Below, one piece after another: positions 1,566 through 22,809 of a stretch of DNA of 22,809 nt. The position numbers were made by a program, and so were the translations under genes. Source of the DNA: a virus; IMG/VR virus record IMGVR_UViG_3300044798_000058, positions 1 through 22,809 of that record. One strand, 5' to 3'. The stretch's first letter is position 1. Each line of letters starts with the position of its first letter. The notes beneath the pieces are model-generated. The model was not told where the DNA came from. It was given only the letters and a program-made list of their open reading frames with translations, and searched no databases.

Positions 1566-2701
1566 CCGACATTACTCAACATCTCCCCGAAAATTCGCCT
1601 GTGGTTGATGCCATTTATGCCTATCACAAGAATCGCGGAGACTCAGGACAGTTCCGGCAATATCTTGGAATGTCAGAAATAGGGGGGCCTTGTGAACGTG
1701 CATTATGGTATAAATTTAAGCATTGTTGTAAATCGGAATTTTCGGGGCGACTCTATCGTTTGTTTGAGACAGGAGATTTAGCTGAATCCCGTTTTATTAG
1801 AGAATTACGAGCAATAGGTTGTGAGGTTCACGATAAAGATGAATCCGGTAATCAGTTTGCATTTAGCGATTTTGGAGGGCATTTTTCGGGACACATGGAT
1901 GGGTGTGCGCTAGGGGTTCCCGGCGGCGAGAAGTCATGGACGATTTTGGAATTTAAAACGTCCAATGATAAATTATTCCAGAAGTTAAAAAAAGAAGGAG
2001 TAAAAAAGGCAAAACCTACTCACTATTGTCAGATGACGTGCTATATGGGCTATTCGGGAATGAAAAGGGCATTATATTTAGTGTCCAATAAAGATGATGA
2101 CTCCTTATATAGTGAAAGAATACAATTTAATAAAGAAGAATTTGATGCTTTAATAAAAAGGGCCGAGAGGATAATTACTTCGTCGGAACCACCGGATCGG
2201 TGCGCTTCTCGACCAGATTATTATGAATGTTCTTATTGCGATGCAAAAGAGATTTGCTGGGGAGGCGGAAAGTCTGCTCTCCCGGTCCCGGCCATAAACT
2301 GCCGACAATGCTGTCATGCTACGGCCACAGTGGACGGCAATGCTTGTTGGAAATGTGAAAAACATAAACGTGGGCTATCTCCTGCTGACCAATCGAGAGC
2401 TTGCAACGATCACCTTGTCTTGCCAGGGTTGATTAGTTTTGCAACTCCGGTGGATTATAAAAATGATTCTATTGTATATGAAAACAATAGTGATAAAAAA
2501 GCATGGAGATGTGGGGGAGAAAACAGTTTTTCTACAAAAGAACTAATGCAATTATCTCCTGAACAATTAATTAATCTAACTATATTAAAAGTCAAAGAAG
2601 TTTTTGACGCAACCGTAGAAAGGGTTTGGAAAGATGAGGATTCCGATAACAGTAATTCTAATATTGGCGGCGACTCGGGTATGGGCGGGAATTCCCGATG
2701 A
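1562..2701 (+). CDS. Cas4/RecB-like PD-(D/E)XK nuclease with Fe-S cysteine motif and extra zinc ribbon
   Basis: This is a probable DNA exonuclease of the PD-(D/E)XK superfamily, 379 aa. Visible motifs are SEIGGPCERALWY (Cys44, N-terminal motif), FETGDLAESRF, GHMDG (Asp113), LEFKTSN (Glu130, Lys132) and QMTCY (Gln157, Tyr161). Together these form the RecB/Cas4 nuclease core. Cys44 plus the C-terminal Cys223, Cys226 and Cys232 match the four-cysteine cluster that binds [4Fe-4S] in Cas4 and AddB. A second cysteine group (247, 250, 262, 265) looks like an added zinc ribbon. No Cas1, Cas2 or CRISPR repeats are nearby, so a role in phage replication or recombination is more likely than in spacer acquisition. 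The start is coupled by ATGA to the previous gene. The last 68 bases overlap the serine protease gene in another frame. Confidence 0.88.
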   Translation: MTDITQHLPENSPVVDAIYAYHKNRGDSGQFRQYLGMSEIGGPCERALWYKFKHCCKSEFSGRLYRLFETGDLAESRFIRELRAIGCEVHDKDESGNQFAFSDFGGHFSGHMDGCALGVPGGEKSWTILEFKTSNDKLFQKLKKEGVKKAKPTHYCQMTCYMGYSGMKRALYLVSNKDDDSLYSERIQFNKEEFDALIKRAERIITSSEPPDRCASRPDYYECSYCDAKEICWGGGKSALPVPAINCRQCCHATATVDGNACWKCEKHKRGLSPADQSRACNDHLVLPGLISFATPVDYKNDSIVYENNSDKKAWRCGGENSFSTKELMQLSPEQLINLTILKVKEVFDATVERVWKDEDSDNSNSNIGGDSGMGGNSR

Positions 2702-3506
2702 TCTGCAAACCGTAAGCGTTACGATCAAAGCCGGAAATGTCCAAGGCTCAGGAACTATTATAACGCGAAAAATTGGCGATGACAATGTTACGTTTGTGTG
2801 GACGGCGGGGCATGTTGTTTCTGGGCTTCGTTCTTTGCGAACAGTTGTTATTGCCGGCACCACGAAAACTTTGATTGCTTACAGGGACGCCGAAATTATC
2901 CAAGAAATGCAAGAAGACGGCCGGCGAATCGGCGAAGTTAAATATGATGCTAAGGTTATTAAGGTATCTGATGCCGACTATGGGGAGGATTTGGCATTAC
3001 TTATGGTTCGTAGAAAGAATGCCTACCCAACAACCGTATGTGTAAAGTTCAAACTTGACAAGCAATATATTCCACCAATCGGAATTAGCTTAGTTCATGT
3101 TGGAAGTCTACTTGGGCAGTTTGGGGCAAACAGCTTCACCAGCGGCCTTATGTCGCAAACAGGCCGACTTCTGTCCGGCAGGGGTGCCGAAAGTAAGGTT
3201 TTCGACCAAACGACCGTAACGGCCTTTCCAGGTTCTTCAGGCGGCGGTGTATTCCTCGCAGAAACCGGAGAATACATTGGGATGCTTACCCAAGGTGTTC
3301 AAAAACTACAAGGCTTTAATTTTATTGTGCCTATCCGCCGTATTCATAAATGGGCTTGCGATAGCAAAATTGAATGGGCCATTGATCCATCAGTTGCCGG
3401 TCCATCCCTTAAGGAAATTGATGCTATCTTAGTAGAAGATGTAAGTTCATTAAGTGATTCAGGGAGACAGGAAAATCCAGAAGATAAGATTCCGGTTGCG
3501 AGGTAA
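2634..3506 (+). CDS. Exported trypsin-like (chymotrypsin-fold) serine protease
   Basis: This 290-aa protein has a clear catalytic triad: His60 in TAGH, Asp119 in EDLALL, and Ser202 in PGSSGGG. That is the pattern of HtrA/trypsin-like proteases. The N-terminus MRIPITVILILAATRVWA is a typical signal peptide (Arg, hydrophobic core, small-residue cleavage site VWA|G), so it probably acts outside the cytoplasm or stays membrane-tethered. No PDZ domain follows. The C-terminal 40 residues are acidic and low complexity. The ATG at 2634 is preceded by GGAAAG and lies inside the end of the nuclease gene; the signal peptide supports this start. An exported protease is unexpected in a replication operon. 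It could attack periplasmic or receptor proteins, or protect the infected cell; this is inference. Confidence 0.88.
   Translation: MRIPITVILILAATRVWAGIPDDLQTVSVTIKAGNVQGSGTIITRKIGDDNVTFVWTAGHVVSGLRSLRTVVIAGTTKTLIAYRDAEIIQEMQEDGRRIGEVKYDAKVIKVSDADYGEDLALLMVRRKNAYPTTVCVKFKLDKQYIPPIGISLVHVGSLLGQFGANSFTSGLMSQTGRLLSGRGAESKVFDQTTVTAFPGSSGGGVFLAETGEYIGMLTQGVQKLQGFNFIVPIRRIHKWACDSKIEWAIDPSVAGPSLKEIDAILVEDVSSLSDSGRQENPEDKIPVAR
2686..2697. repeat. 12-base perfect palindrome in gene overlap
   Basis: CGGGAATTCCCG is self-complementary over 12 bases and lies in the short stretch where the nuclease and protease frames overlap. It could form a small hairpin near the nuclease stop or bind a dimeric protein, but chance under dual coding constraint is also plausible. 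Confidence 0.6.
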
Positions 3507-7645: not shown

Positions 7646-8031
7646 TGACTCCCGAAACAATAACCATTGTATTACCGCTTCCCAATAAGGTTTTGCAGCC
7701 TAATTGTACTATTGGTAGTTTTGGTGGTCGTATGATGAAGGCAGCGGCATCTAAGAAATATCGACGACTTGCGCGAGAAGCAATAGAAGCAGAGCAGATT
7801 GAAACTTTTCCTTGGAAGAAAGTTAAGGTAAGCGCCATTTTTTATCATGCTAATAAAAGAAAAAGAGATCAAGACAATGCAATGGGCGCGCTTAAGGCTG
7901 CTTATGATGGAATTACAGAATCAAAACTTGTGGCTGATGACGACTATCTTCACATGAATCGGGGAATTCCAGAATTTAAACTTGACAAAGAATTTCCACG
8001 AGTTATACTAACTATTACACGGTTGGAATAA
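7645..8031 (+). CDS. rusA: RusA-family Holliday junction resolvase
   Basis: This 128-aa protein has the length and layout of RusA, an endonuclease that cuts four-way DNA junctions. The acidic catalytic set is visible: Asp75 and Asp77 in KRDQDN, followed by the ALKAAYDGI helix with Lys84 and Asp88, then a DDD cluster (98-100) in KLVADDDYL. The N-terminal ITIVLPLPNK fits the first strand. It would resolve branched DNA formed during phage replication before packaging. The start is coupled to the preceding 34-aa ORF. Confidence 0.9.
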   Translation: MTPETITIVLPLPNKVLQPNCTIGSFGGRMMKAAASKKYRRLAREAIEAEQIETFPWKKVKVSAIFYHANKRKRDQDNAMGALKAAYDGITESKLVADDDYLHMNRGIPEFKLDKEFPRVILTITRLE

Positions 8032-8033
8032 AG

Positions 8034-8204
8034 ATGATTACAGATAAACAAGAAAAGGGAATTTTATATTATCTTCAATATAACTTTCCAATTGAAGCTA
8101 TTGAACTTAGAACAAAAATTCCAGCAGAACATATTCGCACAATCAAAAAATATCACCAACTTAAAGGAACCTTTAATGGCGAAAAAGAAAACCCAAAAGA
8201 TTAA
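8034..8204 (+). CDS. 56-aa protein, possible HTH
   Basis: The ATG at 8034 comes two bases after the resolvase stop. The 56-aa product has LYYLQYNFPIEAIELRTKIP then AEHIRTIKKYHQ, which looks like a short helix-turn-helix (helix, helix IEAIELRTK, turn IPA, helix EHIRTIKKYH). The tail is Lys-rich. It overlaps the start of the metallophosphoesterase gene by 29 bases in another frame. No family recognised. Its spacing and its composition, which is like that of its neighbours, support expression. Confidence 0.55.
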   Translation: MITDKQEKGILYYLQYNFPIEAIELRTKIPAEHIRTIKKYHQLKGTFNGEKENPKD

Positions 8205-9027
8205 CAATCTTGTTATAGTAAGTGACTTGCATTGTGGTTGTCGTCTTGGACTTTGCCCGCCAGACCCAATTAAACTTGATGATGGGGGATATTATATATC
8301 ATCGAATATACAACAAAAGGTATGGGCGTGGTGGCAAGAATTTTGGTATGATTGGGTGCCGCAAGCCACACACCATGAACCATTTGCAGTTTGCGTAAAT
8401 GGCGATGTAATTGATGGGGTACACCACAATTCCACAACCCAAATCAGCCATAATCTGCAAGACCAAAAGCGTATTGCAATTGCAGTATTGAAGCCTATCG
8501 TAAAGTTATGTAAGGGCCGCTTCTATATGGTTCGCGGAACTAATGCCCATGTTGGCGAAAGCGGTTGTGATGAAGAGGGCGTTGCAGAACAACTGGGGGC
8601 TATTTCCGATGAAGAGGGCCGATATGCTCATTGGGAGCTTTGGTGTAGAGTTGGTAAAGGTCTCATACATTGTACACACCACATAGGAACCACAGGAAGC
8701 AGCCATTATGAATCAACAGCAGTTACTAAGGAGCTTACTGAGAGTTATACACAAGCTGGGAGAAATAGACTCGAACCACCAGATGTCGTTGTCCGTTCGC
8801 ACAGACACCGCCATATTGAAGTACGAGTCCCCACCGCTCTCGGATACGGAATTAGTTTCGTTACTGCTGGATGGCAATTGCGAACTCCGTTTGCGTATAA
8901 AATCCCCGGAGGTCGTGTTACAACGCCCCAATGTGGAGGGTCATTAATCCGCCAAGGCGACGAAGATTTATTCACAAGGCACAAGATTTGGGACATTGGA
9001 CGTTCTAAAGTAGTGGAGGATTTATGA
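8176..9027 (+). CDS. Calcineurin-like metallophosphoesterase
   Basis: This 283-aa enzyme has a two-metal phosphoesterase site: SDLHCG (Asp17, His19), NGDVIDG (Asp77), RGTNAH (Asn123, His125), HCTHH (His165-169) and RSHRHRH (209-213). The third motif reads TNAH rather than the usual GNH. Phages use such proteins as nucleases or as phosphatases on nucleotides or RNA ends; the substrate cannot be told. I chose the ATG at 8176, with AAAGGA upstream and a Lys-rich N-terminus. The frame is open further upstream to a TTG at 8092, but that would overlap most of the 56-aa ORF. The stop overlaps the next ATG (ATGA). Confidence 0.85.
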   Translation: MAKKKTQKINNLVIVSDLHCGCRLGLCPPDPIKLDDGGYYISSNIQQKVWAWWQEFWYDWVPQATHHEPFAVCVNGDVIDGVHHNSTTQISHNLQDQKRIAIAVLKPIVKLCKGRFYMVRGTNAHVGESGCDEEGVAEQLGAISDEEGRYAHWELWCRVGKGLIHCTHHIGTTGSSHYESTAVTKELTESYTQAGRNRLEPPDVVVRSHRHRHIEVRVPTALGYGISFVTAGWQLRTPFAYKIPGGRVTTPQCGGSLIRQGDEDLFTRHKIWDIGRSKVVEDL

Positions 9028-9992: not shown

Positions 9993-10443
9993 AATCTATT
10001 TAGCCGGACCGATTTCTGGACTGAATCACAGCAATGCAACTTCATGGAGAGAGGAAATCTGGACTTTATTTAAACATAGTAGAGGCATCGTCCAATGCCT
10101 CTCTCCTATGAGATCAAAGGATAAATTAATGGGTATGGGCACTATAGAACAATCATACGAAAAGTTCGGTTGCATGTACTCAGATCGAGGTATCATATCG
10201 AGAGATTTTCACGATTGTACAACATCTGATTTAGTAATATTCCATTTACTTGGGGCAGAAAAAATTAGTATTGGAACAATAATGGAATTAGCATGGTGTT
10301 ACCAAAAGAGAATCCCCACAGTCGTAATCATGGGACTAAAATGGAATATTCACGATCATCCGATGGTTCGTGAAGCAATTAATTTTCGTGTAGATTCAAT
10401 CGAAGAAGCAGTGGAAGTTGCAATTTCTGTTTTAGGATTATAA
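9985..10443 (+). CDS. Nucleoside 2-deoxyribosyltransferase-like protein
   Basis: This 152-aa Rossmann-like protein begins MLKIYLAGPISGLN, the signature opening of the nucleoside 2-deoxyribosyltransferase family. HDCTTSDLVIFHLL follows, then IGTIMELAWCYQKRIPTVVI, where Glu101 is the probable nucleophile. The family moves deoxyribose between bases or hydrolyses nucleotides. Here it probably acts in nucleotide salvage together with the diphosphohydrolase-like gene. The ATG at 9985 fits the family start best, although AGGAG sits only one base away; GGAG at 9969 and an alternative ATG at 9967 are other options. Confidence 0.82.
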   Translation: MLKIYLAGPISGLNHSNATSWREEIWTLFKHSRGIVQCLSPMRSKDKLMGMGTIEQSYEKFGCMYSDRGIISRDFHDCTTSDLVIFHLLGAEKISIGTIMELAWCYQKRIPTVVIMGLKWNIHDHPMVREAINFRVDSIEEAVEVAISVLGL

Positions 10444-10444
10444 T

Positions 10445-10747
10445 ATGACCACACAAAAATGGCGTAAATTAACGAAGTGGATTAGAGATCATTTTATTGT
10501 TCTCTTGCCAGTTAAAATAACACGAAAAAAAACAGATTGTTGTGGTAAGGTCTTTAAAGACCGTGGTATTTGGAATATTACAATTAATATAGGTCAATGT
10601 GACATATTACAAAAGGATAGTTTATTACATGAATGGGCACATATAATGGCCGATGAATGTAACGGATCAGAAAAGCGCATACATGGCCCAAAATGGGCAC
10701 GATGGTATGGGAAAATATATGAAGCTTGGGAAAGAGATCACGGTTAA
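10445..10747 (+). CDS. SprT-like zinc metalloprotein
   Basis: This 100-aa protein carries a metalloprotease motif HEWAH (His62, Glu63, His66) and a downstream HGPKW with His80 as a likely third zinc ligand, followed by an aromatic-rich helix. This is the layout of SprT-like and related small zincins. The N-terminus has strands around FIVLLPVKIT and GIWNITINI that could form the sheet before the active-site helix. It is the last confident gene of the plus-strand operon. Target unknown. Confidence 0.78.
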   Translation: MTTQKWRKLTKWIRDHFIVLLPVKITRKKTDCCGKVFKDRGIWNITINIGQCDILQKDSLLHEWAHIMADECNGSEKRIHGPKWARWYGKIYEAWERDHG

Positions 10748-10913
10748 AGACCTTGCCAATCAGCGTTGCCTTCTTTGCGGGCAGCTTCGTAAGTGGTGTC
10801 TTTGCAATAAAAAAAGCCAGTCATATAGGCTGGCTAAACCGCTTCCTAATGACAGCGGGGAGTCGTTTAATCATCATCAAGAAGATCATCCAGCTTCTTA
10901 CAAGCCTGCTTAA
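10719..10913 (+). CDS. Possible small cysteine-cluster ORF at the end of the operon
   Basis: This 64-aa ORF overlaps the end of the SprT-like gene. It encodes KDLANQRCLLCGQLRKWCLC, a CxxC then CxC cluster that could bind zinc. There is no convincing ribosome-binding site. The ORF runs across the minus-strand terminator and 47 bases into the converging minus-strand gene, so it may be spurious. Confidence 0.3.
   Translation: MKLGKEITVKDLANQRCLLCGQLRKWCLCNKKSQSYRLAKPLPNDSGESFNHHQEDHPASYKPA
10809..10835 (-). terminator. Rho-independent terminator of the minus-strand operon
   Basis: Read on the minus strand, a 6-bp stem AGCCAG/CTGGCT (10830-10835 and 10815-10820) with a 9-base loop runs directly into seven U residues (10809-10815). 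It lies about 30 bases beyond the last minus-strand gene. On the plus strand no U-run follows, so it works for one direction only, and I see no matching terminator for the plus-strand operon. Confidence 0.8.
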
Positions 10914-11064
10914 GTAGGCTGTACCCAGTTGTGAAACTGGCAACTACTTCTTCTCTACTCCTGGTGCCGGCCATTGGGTATGCCATAAATCCATCTATAA
11001 ACACATCACACATTCCCATTAGAGTTTTTTCTTTAACTCGATTTATGATTTCTTGTTTATTCAT
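10867..11064 (-). CDS. Small soluble protein, unknown
   Basis: This 65-aa protein has a helical N-terminus (NKQEIINRVKEKTLMGM) and an acidic end (KKLDDLLDDD). No membrane segment. The ATG has the strongest ribosome-binding site in the cassette, GGAGGT, nine bases upstream. It is the last gene before the terminator. No family recognised. Confidence 0.65.
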   Translation of the reverse strand: MNKQEIINRVKEKTLMGMCDVFIDGFMAYPMAGTRSREEVVASFTTGYSLLKQACKKLDDLLDDD

Positions 11065-11071
11065 AAATTAT

Positions 11072-11338
11072 CTACCTCCATTGGCAATGCCCGCTAGTGC
11101 ATCCAGGACACCGTGGGGCGACCGGAGCCGCCGGAGCAATCGGAACTGGCGGCTTGGGTTTGCACGGTCCGGGACAAGGGCAGGGCTTCGGAGCGGGGGC
11201 CGGCGGCGGAACTACTGGTTGAACTACTGGTGTAATTGGACTAGGAGCCTGCTGTTTAGGACAGGCATAAATACTTAAAACAATAATCCCTACTATAATT
11301 AACACAATCAACAAAATGCCTTTAGTTTTTTTCTTCAT
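11072..11338 (-). CDS. Membrane-anchored Pro/Cys-rich protein, possible outer-spanin-like
   Basis: This 88-aa protein has a short KKKTKG start, a membrane segment ILLIVLIIVGIIVLSIYAC, then a Pro/Ala-rich stretch with CPCPGPCKP and a C-terminal CPGCTSGHCQW. The Cys after IYA could serve as a lipid-attachment site, although Tyr at -2 is not a standard lipobox. Proline-rich small lipoproteins are typical of outer-membrane spanins (Rz1), which are needed for the last step of lysis. That is a possibility only, because seven cysteines are more than usual and a metal-binding or disulfide role is equally open. Confidence 0.65.
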   Translation of the reverse strand: MKKKTKGILLIVLIIVGIIVLSIYACPKQQAPSPITPVVQPVVPPPAPAPKPCPCPGPCKPKPPVPIAPAAPVAPRCPGCTSGHCQWR

Positions 11339-11346
11339 GTTTTTCC

Positions 11347-11769
11347 CTATCCTATACGAGTAATGACTTGTAATTTATCACGAATTTTTGAGCATTCTAA
11401 ATCAATATCAATTCCTAGTTCTTTACTTATCTTTTGCATGGCATCGACAAATCCATTTCCGGCAGCACACATATTAGCTACATTAGTTAGCATGATATTT
11501 CCTACTGATGCCTGGACCTCAACGGCTTTAGCATTAACTTTTACGGATTCTTGAATAGTTTCAAGGAAAACGTCTAGGCGATCCATCAGCTTAACGCCTA
11601 TCTTGTACAGCAAATATCCAGCACCAAGTACGAAGGATACGAAGGCCGCAAAAGAAATTATAGCAAATAACCATACGGGGCCAGTCTCTTTTGCAAGACT
11701 GGCCCAAGCTGCCGGATCAGTCGCGGCATGGCTTATACTCTCTTCTGCAAAAAGTGCTAGAGAATACAT
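11347..11769 (-). CDS. Single-span membrane protein with long helical tail
   Basis: This 140-aa protein has a membrane segment around residues 32-55 (VWLFAIISFAAFVSFVLGAG) followed by an amphipathic region with DRLDVFLETIQESVKVNAKA and a C-terminal helix KISKELGIDIDLECSKI. The layout resembles inner-membrane spanins or chemoreceptor-like helical proteins, but no family is recognised. AAAGG lies upstream of the ATG. It sits next to the Pro/Cys-rich lipoprotein-like gene, which would fit a two-component spanin pair; this is inference. Confidence 0.65.
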   Translation of the reverse strand: MYSLALFAEESISHAATDPAAWASLAKETGPVWLFAIISFAAFVSFVLGAGYLLYKIGVKLMDRLDVFLETIQESVKVNAKAVEVQASVGNIMLTNVANMCAAGNGFVDAMQKISKELGIDIDLECSKIRDKLQVITRIG

Positions 11770-11771
11770 AG

Positions 11772-11996
11772 TTATTTTACCTTTGCAGATGTTCCGGTTC
11801 CAGTTGTAGTCGTTGTAGTTGTTGCTTTTGTAAGCAACGCAACCACGAACTTATATAATGCAGCAGGCGAGGCAATAACAGTCTTGCTGATTGCCGTCGC
11901 TACTGAATCACCAGCAGTAATTCGCTCTTGGTAATAAGCCAAGAATAACCCGCCTGCAAATACCCCAATAGCTAATCGCACCCAAATTGGTAACAT
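11772..11996 (-). CDS. Small membrane protein with Thr-rich tail, holin-like size
   Basis: This 74-aa protein has an N-terminal membrane segment WVRLAIGVFAGGLFLAYY and a second hydrophobic stretch SPAALYKFVVALL, then a tail with a run of seven Thr and TGTGTSAKVK. A GAGGT site precedes the ATG. Size, two hydrophobic segments and a basic end fit a holin, but nothing is diagnostic. The Thr tract resembles the one in the 13289-13531 gene of the same cassette. Confidence 0.6.
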   Translation of the reverse strand: MLPIWVRLAIGVFAGGLFLAYYQERITAGDSVATAISKTVIASPAALYKFVVALLTKATTTTTTTGTGTSAKVK

Positions 11997-12003
11997 TTTA
12001 ACC

Positions 12004-12762
12004 TCACTTTGAATAAGTAACTTGTCTTACAACATAAGCTTCACTAGGAATTTTTTTACTTCCGCTAACCAACATATCTTGCCCTGCACCCCATGTATTA
12101 GGAAGCCATGGGCAAATCTCGGTTCCTTTCATTTGTAACTCTTCCATGTTCATCGCGTGACCCAGCCAGTTATAAGCGATGTAAACAGCGTCGCCGGATA
12201 GTAATGCAGTTACGCATTCTGCCCACATATCTTTTGTGCCAAGGTCGAATCGCTCAAGCGGCACAACGTCTAGGGACTTTACTTCCCATCCAGGGGTAAA
12301 CGTCTTTGGGTTGAGATCATACAATGGAATCATTGATCTTGGGGCTACGCCATGTGCTGCGATATAAGCAAGGGCATCATCTAATGCCCCACCTTGGTCT
12401 CTGAAGTTATAAGTCCCCGCAATTGACTCTGGAGATAGTTGATGATAAGGGAGATTTTCTTTAGCTCGGACGCATTCAATATGCTGTGCCAGAGAAAAGG
12501 CCCAACACAACGGATGATTACCTTGATTCTGTAATGCAGGATTGAAACTCTCATACTTTTGGCGAATGAACTTTCCCTTCATGGTTTCCATTCTGGCCGG
12601 CCACTGAGATTCAGGGATAAGCTCCATTACATCAGCGTAAGGCAATACCCCTTCTAATTGACCTAAAATACTCTGGCGTGGTAAAGCCCCGCAAAGTCCT
12701 GGAGTGTTTAGGGCTGCTCTTGCATATTGTTCCCAATTTCCATCATGGATATGAATAGTCAT
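12004..12762 (-). CDS. Papain-like (C1 family) cysteine peptidase
   Basis: The protein has 252 aa. The papain active-site pattern is visible in order: NQGNHPLCWAFS gives Gln80 (oxyanion hole) and Cys86 (nucleophile), LSPESI and GGALDDALAYIAAHGVAPRS match the typical mid-region, GHAMN gives His202, and PNTWGAG gives Asn222. The usual disulfide cysteine before the active site is replaced, which fits a cytoplasmic enzyme, and no signal peptide is present. The N-terminal 65 residues act as a leader containing IPESQWPARMETM, which I recall from C1 proteins of Planctomycetota phages. The substrate is unknown: head maturation, host proteins or peptidoglycan cross-bridges are all possible. It sits among membrane-protein genes; AAAGG lies ahead of the start. 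Confidence 0.88.
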   Translation of the reverse strand: MTIHIHDGNWEQYARAALNTPGLCGALPRQSILGQLEGVLPYADVMELIPESQWPARMETMKGKFIRQKYESFNPALQNQGNHPLCWAFSLAQHIECVRAKENLPYHQLSPESIAGTYNFRDQGGALDDALAYIAAHGVAPRSMIPLYDLNPKTFTPGWEVKSLDVVPLERFDLGTKDMWAECVTALLSGDAVYIAYNWLGHAMNMEELQMKGTEICPWLPNTWGAGQDMLVSGSKKIPSEAYVVRQVTYSK

Positions 12763-12771
12763 TCTGTACCT

Positions 12772-12879
12772 TTATCTTAATGAGTTAAAATCCCAATACC
12801 ACGCTAGAAAAACTTCCGCACCTATTGTAAAAATTATCCCCAAAATAAATCCAATAATAGAGCATATTAATTTACTCAT
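12772..12879 (-). CDS. 35-aa single-span membrane peptide
   Basis: This short ORF encodes MSKLICSIIGFILGIIFTIG followed by AEVFLAWYWDFNSLR: one membrane helix with an aromatic exit. Its ATG overlaps the stop of the upstream gene (ATGA) and it ends 9 bases before the peptidase start, so it fits the operon exactly. Function unknown; it could be a small holin or antiholin-type peptide. Confidence 0.6.
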   Translation of the reverse strand: MSKLICSIIGFILGIIFTIGAEVFLAWYWDFNSLR

Positions 12880-13292
12880 TTCAATTTCTCCAACGCTGTC
12901 TTTTCATCGGCAGGAAGCGGAATAGCCGTTATCTTGTATCCGCGTTTACAAACTAATGCCGGCAACTTCACTGCTTTAGCCGCTTCCAAATACGGTATTA
13001 AATCTTGCGGAGGCTTCTTATCCCGATCAACGATGTCCTTATCGAAGCAGCCAAGATAAGAGCCTCCAGATTTTTGTATCTCTTGTGGAAATGTAACTGA
13101 ATCCATAAGAGCAATTTGAGGGGCCGGCAACGTCGAGCGAACGGCGGTTTCCTCGATGATCGCCACGGTTGCCGGACCATGTACGATCCAATTAAGTGGA
13201 TTTAGCCAATCGGGGATTGCTGGCGTTGCCGGTCCCAATAGTAAACCGATTCCGATTACCAGTAAAGCAATGGGTATGCGAATATCTTTCAT
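12876..13292 (-). CDS. Membrane-anchored thioredoxin-like protein (tentative)
   Basis: This 138-aa protein has an N-terminal anchor or signal (IPIALLVIGIGLLLGPATPA) followed by a soluble domain: TVAIIEETAVRSTLPAPQIA, then GSYLGCFDKDIVDRD, YLEAAKAVKLPALVC and ITAIPLPADEKTALEKL. The order strand, helix, strand with DKD, helix, LPALV strand resembles thioredoxin-fold proteins I recall from Planctomycetota genomes and phages, but the CxxC active site is missing. It would sit outside the inner membrane. Both ends overlap neighbours by ATGA. The fold call is an inference from pattern only. Confidence 0.7.
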   Translation of the reverse strand: MKDIRIPIALLVIGIGLLLGPATPAIPDWLNPLNWIVHGPATVAIIEETAVRSTLPAPQIALMDSVTFPQEIQKSGGSYLGCFDKDIVDRDKKPPQDLIPYLEAAKAVKLPALVCKRGYKITAIPLPADEKTALEKLK

Positions 13293-13531
13293 GCCGGCAC
13301 CTTAGACATAAGGGTCCAGACCTCCGCAACCTTTCCGGCCAACTCTGTATTTTTATTCTTCCAAGCAATGCTGGTTAGCGTAACACAAGCCGCTGCTGCA
13401 TCGGTTAAATCTGAGTTTGTAGTCGCCGCTACGGTTGTAGTTGTGGCTGTAGTTGTAGTTTGAAAATAATTCGCATAAACAAGCCACAACAACCACACTC
13501 CGCCAATTCCGATTACAATCCAAGCAATCAT
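13289..13531 (-). CDS. Small membrane protein with Thr-rich linker
   Basis: This 80-aa protein has a membrane segment IAWIVIGIGGVWLLWLVYAN, then a Thr/Ala-rich linker (YFQTTTTATTTTVAATT) and a helical C-terminus. AAGGGAG lies upstream of the ATG. The linker suggests the C-terminus is held away from the membrane on the outside. No family recognised. Confidence 0.6.
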   Translation of the reverse strand: MIAWIVIGIGGVWLLWLVYANYFQTTTTATTTTVAATTNSDLTDAAAACVTLTSIAWKNKNTELAGKVAEVWTLMSKVPA

Positions 13532-13543
13532 ATATTCTCCCTT

Positions 13544-13690
13544 CTAAAACGGATAGTTCAATACCCAAATAGGCCAAAACAAAATGTCAAAGATAATTTG
13601 TGAAAAACAGGCAGTGTGTCTGACTATTAAACCAGTAAGTATAGCGCCAATAAGTAAATAGATAAGCGATATAGTAAATAAAACCTTCAT
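13544..13690 (-). CDS. 48-aa membrane peptide
   Basis: This encodes MKVLFTISLIYLLIGAILTG with LIVRH after it and a second hydrophobic stretch IIFDILFWPIWVL, so it makes one or two membrane passes. The ATG overlaps the upstream stop (ATGA), with GAGGGTG ahead of it, and the stop is 12 bases before the next start. No family recognised. Confidence 0.6.
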   Translation of the reverse strand: MKVLFTISLIYLLIGAILTGLIVRHTACFSQIIFDILFWPIWVLNYPF

Positions 13691-13863
13691 ACTTGTTCAC
13701 CCTCTCTTAAAATGTGATGAATTCTTGGCGGAACATTCGGTTGGATTACCCGTCCTCTGGGTTGTAGACATCCCCTAGAATGTAGTACCACTATAGCTAG
13801 TATAAGGAATGTTAAACACCACCAAACCACATTTGGTATCGCAGCTAATAATGTTTTAAACAT
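13687..13863 (-). CDS. 58-aa membrane protein, first gene of the cassette, possibly leaderless
   Basis: This encodes MFKTLLAAIPNVVWWCLTFL continuing into ILAIVVLHSRGC and a basic, Pro-rich tail. It has one membrane helix with a Cys/Arg exit. The frame extends upstream to a TTG at 13881, but that would lie inside the promoter and has no ribosome-binding site. The ATG at 13863 coincides with the predicted transcription start of the promoter at 13870-13897, so the mRNA may begin exactly at AUG. It is coupled by ATGA to the next gene. Confidence 0.55.
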   Translation of the reverse strand: MFKTLLAAIPNVVWWCLTFLILAIVVLHSRGCLQPRGRVIQPNVPPRIHHILREGEQV

Positions 13864-13869
13864 AACTGT

Positions 13870-13897
13870 AGTATACTTCAAAAAAAGTATTTGTCAA
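13870..13897 (-). promoter_or_regulatory. Sigma-70-type promoter for the membrane/peptidase cassette
   Basis: On the minus strand TTGACA (13892-13897, all six consensus bases) and TATACT (13870-13875, five of six) are separated by 16 bases. The predicted start seven bases past the -10 is an A at 13863, which is the A of the first ATG of the cassette. It lies in the only intergenic space between the 1571-aa gene and the cassette. Confidence 0.75.
13873..13890. repeat. Inverted repeat in promoter spacer, possible operator
   Basis: ATACTT (13873-13878) and AAGTAT (13885-13890) are exact inverted arms with a 6-base A-rich centre. They overlap the -10 box and fill the spacer of the promoter. This is where a repressor or activator would act, but the sequence alone cannot tell. 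Confidence 0.4.
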
Positions 13898-21760: not shown

Positions 21761-22809
21761 TTATGATTGAATATATGACATTCCGCTTTGTGTGTTTATA
21801 GTGGGATTATAATCAGTAGTATTTCCTGAGGCAGTATTTGATGATACACGAATATAGGCAGCTTTATCTGCATAATATCCCGTTGTATTACCTGTTGCTA
21901 CCGTTTGTTCTGCGTCGCTAGAGCTACTTTGAAGTACGTAAAATCCATACGTATTCCCCGACGCTATGGCATAAAATAAATTTACACCTGAGTTAGCCTG
22001 CGTAAGAAAACCTATAGTACAACCAGACGAAAAAAGTGCCGATGTAACTGTTGTTAATATTGCCCCATTTTGTACGTTCCAGCCATAATTAAAATTACAA
22101 CAACCTACATTGACACCAATCCAAATCGCTGATCCATCTATAGTTATTCCTATATTAGTTGCACCTGGACCAGCTAAAACCAAATTAGAAATTAATTGAA
22201 ATTTACTTCCTACAGTTAAGGTAAGTCCGTCCCCGGCACAAGTAATTACGGCTTTTACTACTACTAATGTGCCACTAGAAATATTACTAGCGTAAGCTGC
22301 TGATTTATGAACAGATGTCAATGTAACATATTTATTACCTACATCAAAAGCCGTAACCACATGGCAACCATCCAAAAATGATGGGTTCGTACCGCCAGCC
22401 ATAGCGGAAATTAAAACATAATCACCAATTGCAATATTGTTGGCGTTATTCAAAACTAACTGATAGGACCATGCGCCCGCGCCACCCGAGCGGGCGTTGA
22501 TTGAGCTAATTGTTTTTGAATATGTATTTGTTCCTGTAAGTTTAATTTGTGATCCAAAGGGGTGATTTAAAGATGTTCCCGCCGCAACGGAATAGTGCCC
22601 GTCTGCCATCGTAATTGTTATAGTGACACCAGATGCAATAATAAATGACGCTAAATATGACATTGCTTTTGCAATTGTCAACCAAGGAGTTCCAGATGAC
22701 CCATTTCCAGTAGTATCGTTTCCGGTTGTTGCAATATAATATGTTATATTGGTAGTAATCGTTTGTTGTGCAGAGAATCCTCCTATAGTACAAGCTGGAA
22801 CAGCCAAAG
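21761..22809 (-). CDS. Beta-helix tail spike/fibre protein (5' partial)
   Basis: The frame is open to the window edge; the codon at 22805-22807 is TTG inside the frame, so the true start is probably outside. The visible 348 residues open with TNITYYIATTGNDTTGNGSS then GTPWLTIAKAMSYL, the usual start of pectate-lyase-fold tail spikes. Many short rungs rich in Gly, Asn, Thr and Ser follow (NVGCCNFNYGWNVQNGAI, SGNTYGFYVLQSSS, ATGNTTGYYADKAAYIRVSS). Such proteins form trimeric fibres that bind or cut host polysaccharide. No catalytic residues can be assigned from this fragment. It ends two bases before the adhesin-type gene. Confidence 0.78.
   Translation of the reverse strand, partial: LAVPACTIGGFSAQQTITTNITYYIATTGNDTTGNGSSGTPWLTIAKAMSYLASFIIASGVTITITMADGHYSVAAGTSLNHPFGSQIKLTGTNTYSKTISSINARSGGAGAWSYQLVLNNANNIAIGDYVLISAMAGGTNPSFLDGCHVVTAFDVGNKYVTLTSVHKSAAYASNISSGTLVVVKAVITCAGDGLTLTVGSKFQLISNLVLAGPGATNIGITIDGSAIWIGVNVGCCNFNYGWNVQNGAILTTVTSALFSSGCTIGFLTQANSGVNLFYAIASGNTYGFYVLQSSSSDAEQTVATGNTTGYYADKAAYIRVSSNTASGNTTDYNPTINTQSGMSYIQS

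Follow-up and report, generated by a model that had tools for sequence, protein, structure and literature searches.

A cassette of ten small genes, one of them for a papain-like (C1) cysteine peptidase, closes the late operon of a tailed phage known only from metagenomes. We tentatively regard it as a late module for envelope attack or egress, in which a conserved core, formed by the peptidase and the product of a gene designated d, is combined with fast-changing membrane partners. The window, i.e. the whole 22,809-nt fragment analysed, carries replication and recombination genes (including those for a Cas4-type exonuclease, a helicase, a primase-polymerase and RusA) on the plus strand up to position 10747. 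The late genes are convergent to these, occupying positions 22807 to 10867 of the minus strand, and one of them encodes a 1571-aa protein that matches no family.

The cassette is composed of ten minus-strand ORFs (10867–13863), the peptidase gene and nine others designated a to e and g to j, with intergenic spacing of -4 to +12 nt, and, as the last unit of the late operon, has its own promoter and terminator. ATGA overlaps of 4 nt are found at three junctions (a/b, c/d and d/e). A 19-residue hydrophobic segment, with peak Kyte-Doolittle values of 1.87 to 3.22, is present in eight of the ten products, but not in the peptidase or the product of gene j. By this crude threshold, hydrophobic products account for 8/10 of the cassette genes and 6/19 of the other genes in the window (Fisher p = 0.017). 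The original prediction of ten consecutive genes sharing one promoter and one terminator, with several ATGA junctions, eight membrane proteins and one small soluble protein besides the peptidase, is borne out in each of these respects.

A sigma-70 type promoter, TTGACA-16-TATACT (13870–13897, minus strand; 11/12 match), precedes gene a. Its hexamers and spacer length are identical in a sister phage, where a conserved block surrounds it. The ATG of gene a is located ~6 nt past the -10 box, and with the two so near, gene a is possibly leaderless. The predicted intrinsic terminator (10809–10834, minus strand) is GCCAG-N9-CTGGC-T7, with a 5-bp core stem followed by T7; the hairpin was read from the sequence, and its 9-nt loop exceeds the limit of the terminator scanner. 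The sister phage has an analogous hairpin with a different stem in the same place. A second exact TTGACA-16-TATACT, also conserved in the sister, lies at 7982–8009 (plus strand), inside the RusA-like gene and before a phosphoesterase gene.

The sister phage is represented by overlapping contigs (IMGVR 3300039412_000015, 3300039412_000016, 3300017929_000029, 3300017929_000025, 3300018004_000050 and 3300018024_000027) that tour one map, computed from the overlaps as ~48.4 kb. It carries counterparts of a, c, d, the peptidase gene, g, h, i and j, with dN/dS ratios of 0.03–0.25 that indicate purifying selection, though several dS values are >1 and saturated, so that the ratios are only rough. Genes b, e, h and i turn over rapidly between the two phages. 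The contig of another relative (47% in the portal) stops within its large protein, before any cassette. Among annotated phages, no match was obtained for the portal, the large protein, the peptidase or gene d.

Gene a (13687–13863, minus strand, as are all cassette genes) predicts a 58 aa protein with one transmembrane segment (TM), 84% identical in the sister (dN/dS 0.08). Gene b (13544–13690; 48 aa, one or two predicted TMs) has only a positional counterpart of 32–37 aa, which is unalignable (16%). Gene c (13289–13531; 80 aa) predicts an N-terminal TM, a Thr-rich linker and a short helical tail, and is 72% identical in the sister (dN/dS 0.07). Gene e (12772–12879; 35 aa, one TM) is missing from the sister, and there gene d and the peptidase gene consequently overlap directly by 4 nt. 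Downstream of the peptidase gene, gene g (11772–11996; 74 aa; sister 89%, dN/dS 0.04) encodes a clear hydrophobic segment, a second, weaker one and a Thr-rich basic tail, and its product could cross the membrane twice. Gene h (11347–11769; 140 aa; sister 41%, dN/dS 0.23) predicts one TM (residues 32–50) and a charged helical C-terminal tail, with a probable N-out/C-in topology. The products of g and h fit a holin in size and hydropathy, but neither has a family match in Pfam/PHROG-type scans. Gene j (10867–11064; sister 75%, dN/dS 0.17) predicts a soluble 65 aa protein with an acidic tail.

Gene i (11072–11338; 88 aa) predicts a hydrophobic N-terminus leading to SIYAC, a weak lipobox, and a Pro/Cys-rich tail. 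The features that recall a spanin are this lipobox and Pro-rich tail and, in gene c, the N-terminal TM and short helix, together with only a weak Rz-like match (E 0.14). The sister copy of gene i predicts 151 aa with a complete thioredoxin domain (Pfam Thioredoxin, 1.1e-10) and the motif WCKPC. The thioredoxin-like partner that had been proposed is therefore real in the sister, but the domain is missing from the window copy.

The peptidase gene (12004–12762) predicts a 252 aa protein with no signal peptide or other export signal. The window sequence alone scores 15.2 bits against Pfam C1, under the cut-off of 20.7. However, relatives in other phages exceed the cut-off, and a profile of C1-matching homologs, with the window group left out, finds the window peptidase at 1.4e-6. 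A profile of the peptidase family matches solved C1 enzymes, with the best match (1.6e-18) to the cysteine protease PDB 3ois (xylellain); this is a cellular enzyme, and the window peptidase differs from it in a shortened C-terminal half. On these profile matches, the protein is assigned to the papain/xylellain group of family C1. It is 90% identical in the sister, with the lowest dN/dS of the shared genes (0.03).

The spacing between Gln80 and Cys86 is that of papain, and His202 and Asn222 were assigned from the HAM and PNTWG motifs, not from structure. The sister peptidase reads PGTWG, placing Gly at the position of the catalytic Asn222, and the earlier claim of a C1 peptidase with all four catalytic residues consequently stands for family membership but holds for the window copy only as regards the residues. 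The C-terminal half is also ambiguous in wider alignments, and a distant alignment puts the His region elsewhere. Given this ambiguity and the Gly222 of the sister, the peptidase is probably, though not certainly, enzymatically active. A structure predicted from 7 sequences (pLDDT 36) was too poor for a fold search. No relative was found in bacterial genomes with the few patterns scanned, which makes this absence weak. Two further protease-type genes lie on the plus strand of the window. One, in the replication module (2634–3506), encodes a trypsin-like (HtrA-like) protease with a signal peptide and intact H-D-S motifs, is kept in the sister, and is predicted to be a second phage protease directed at the periplasm. 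The other (10445–10747) predicts a SprT-like metalloprotease-type protein with an HEWAH motif.

Gene d (12876–13292; 138 aa; 83% in the sister) predicts an N-terminal TM or signal anchor followed by a soluble domain of ~100 aa. In phages of 135 and 144 kb, this soluble domain and the peptidase are encoded adjacently and in the same order, and both homologies are independently significant. A profile of the gene d partners from these phages finds the window d at E 6.6e-6 (tblastn 1.4e-6), and the partner there has a clear lipobox and is predicted to be a lipoprotein. Among records of 19, 103, 187, 341 and 595 kb (LR756511.1), a peptidase gene of the same family directly follows one for a secreted protein, stop and start often overlapping, and is followed by genes for amphipathic, membrane-anchored and secreted proteins. 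The link between window d and the secreted protein of the huge phages is positional only, with a non-significant E of 0.3–0.5. Beyond the 48 kb group, neither g nor h was seen in the neighbourhood of the peptidase, and the other membrane genes of the cassette are not common to the large phages. The co-occurrence expected of the cassette applies to most of its genes in the sister, and to the d-peptidase pair in the 135 and 144 kb phages. Across the 135–595 kb phages, only d or its positional counterpart stays with the peptidase, without the holin-like g and h, and this separation at large distance counts in part against the original proposal. No description of the pair was found in the open-licence papers searched.

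A thioredoxin fold for gene d, suggested by motif reading only, was not supported: there is no CxxC, and neither a PDB profile search nor hhalign gave a match, a thioredoxin profile included; its structure predicted from the single sequence (pLDDT 39) was too poor for a fold search. In the 135 and 144 kb phages, the gene just after the d-peptidase pair is the phosphoesterase-like gene that is also found in the window (8092–9027, plus strand) and at 10001–10843 of L015, and that is shared with 54–83% identity by ten viral contigs varying greatly in size. In the huge phages L062, L063 and L064, a second C1 peptidase, which is xylellain-like, is encoded away from the cassette amid metabolic genes (e.g. 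CTP synthase).

In the large phages, the cassettes are more in keeping with envelope remodelling or superinfection exclusion, in which the membrane proteins and peptidase would alter host surface or periplasmic proteins without lysis. In the 187–595 kb phages, the peptidase gene belongs to a separate cassette for secreted and membrane-anchored proteins amid opposite-strand metabolic genes. One long secreted protein has a cytochrome-c-like motif (a weak match to a planctomycete cytochrome family), which, like the thioredoxin domain, would suit periplasmic redox work, and rapid change in b, e, h and i fits the same role. However, in the 48 kb phage the cassette is terminal and late with its own promoter, and if its role were remodelling, no recognisable gene for lysis would be left in that phage. 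We consider this explanation unlikely, though it is the most serious competitor.

No muralytic family of Pfam, PHROG or NCBIfam was found in the cassette. The absence of a muralytic endolysin from the window, as first noted, also stands, but says little alone, since the window spans just roughly half of a genome. The sister pieces cover the rest of the map, and no standard holin/endolysin/spanin set was found there: among 51 proteins, Pfam and PHROG searches (complete for Pfam; 25 of the 37 matched families for PHROG) detected no endolysin, holin or spanin. Targeted endolysin searches covered eight records, comprising peptidase-bearing large phages and sister-phage contigs. Amidase_2, SLT, Phage_lysozyme, NlpC/P60 and M15_4 had no match in these eight, and M23 was over threshold only in the 595 kb phage, with weak matches in ~1450-aa ORFs of the 135 and 144 kb phages that may be entry proteins. 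PF05838 had no match anywhere, controls included, and that result therefore says nothing. Diverged endolysins may escape Pfam and PHROG models, and the 1571-aa protein is unannotated. In one survey, a recognisable lytic protein was present in 97.4% of double-stranded DNA phages (PMC12596118).

The anatomy of the cassette, taken with this genomic gap in lysis genes, favours egress or envelope attack. Under this preferred reading, the conserved core would pair a C1 peptidase produced in the cytosol with a partner (gene d) that is either anchored in the membrane or secreted, while a, b, c, e, g, h and i would form the fast-changing, holin-like or spanin-like part. The small membrane proteins may let the peptidase reach the envelope layers, or may pull the layers together. 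The peptidase, if released to the periplasm, would cut an envelope protein or peptide cross-links, and in the sister gene i would contribute a thioredoxin. A role in lysis, as originally suggested, is partly supported, by the terminal late position, the strong conserved promoter and the terminator, by strong purifying selection on adjacent small membrane genes as well as on the peptidase itself, by the d-peptidase pair (135/144 kb) and the secreted protein and peptidase neighbours (19–595 kb records), and by the lack of a known lysis family in the sister. Against it count the lack of an export signal on the peptidase, the Gly in place of the catalytic Asn in the sister, the absence of holin-like genes from the large phages, and the long secreted proteins and cytochrome-c-like motif found there, which are unusual for lysis. 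In addition, C1 peptidases are not established as hydrolases of peptidoglycan.

The same lack of known peptidoglycan activity, together with a position just downstream of the gene for the 1571-aa late protein, would suit a virion protease that processes structural proteins (e.g. the 1571-aa protein) or that travels in the virion to act at entry. This is improbable, because the peptidase gene is far from the capsid and scaffold genes, its neighbours in the 135–595 kb phages encode a secreted protein and metabolic functions with no counterpart of the 1571-aa protein, and the membrane genes would be left unexplained. Slightly less probable still is a chance gathering of unrelated late accessory genes at the operon end, for although two close phages differ in b, e and i and holin-like genes are not kept beside the peptidase in large phages, the genes share a promoter and terminator and are mostly under purifying selection, and the d-peptidase pair is kept across phages of very different size.

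In organisation, the cassette resembles the lambda-type holin-endolysin-spanin cassette, with a compact group of small membrane proteins surrounding a single soluble enzyme, overlapping starts and a location at the end of the late genes. It differs in that the enzyme is a C1 peptidase and not of a peptidoglycan hydrolase family, in having its own sigma-70 promoter, and in that its products match no holin or spanin model. Pseudomurein endoisopeptidases (Pei) are cysteine peptidases of another family than the C1 peptidase here. They offer a parallel in methanogen viruses as viral lytic enzymes that cut wall peptide bonds (PMC12596118). Papain-like cysteine peptidases are also found in phages as endolysin domains (CHAP, NlpC/P60 and Amidase_5), and a review groups the wall enzymes in an NlpC/P60 and CHAP cluster (PMC10318531); the cassette peptidase, however, matches C1/xylellain and not CHAP or NlpC/P60.

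As precedents for C1 domains in lysis, there are only one annotation and one author listing. The annotated endolysin of Alicyclobacillus phage MMB025 (XXN61434.1) has an N-terminal C1 domain with a profile match of 1.4e-11 to the cassette peptidase family, but is 753 aa, combines C1 in one chain with Rv2525c GH-like and PG_binding_1 domains, and is an endolysin by annotation only. For Xanthomonas jumbo phage XacN1, the C1 family peptidase ORF382 is listed by the authors as a potential lytic enzyme (PMC5852040). This likeness is drawn from the published description alone, and the available text of that description reports no membrane cassette.

The presence of the d-peptidase pair in far larger phages suggests that there may be a protease-based breach of the envelope without a recognisable wall enzyme. 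A wider form of this idea, protease-based lysis or egress with interchangeable membrane proteins in ~48–595 kb phages lacking classical endolysins, possibly in Planctomycetota or similar hosts with an unusual envelope, is doubtful as it stands, the planctomycete link being a weak hint that comes from the large phages only. With its C1 peptidase and no known wall enzyme, this phage group opens to test whether murein hydrolysis can be replaced, or prepared for, by proteolysis. The recurrence of peptidase and partner in giant phages provides a handle on how phages exit from little-studied environmental bacteria.

Three features of the structural and packaging genes were also observed. The terminase large subunit is encoded by one ORF in L034 (3458–5320) and by two overlapping ORFs in sister contig L035 (8039–9857), where the split may represent a frameshift, an intron remnant or an assembly error. 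A gene for a D-Ala-D-Ala-ligase-like ATP-grasp enzyme adjoins the terminase genes in L035 (6834–7835, plus strand), and an Endonuclease VII-like gene lies between the scaffold and capsid genes of sister contig L020 (2228–2734, minus strand).
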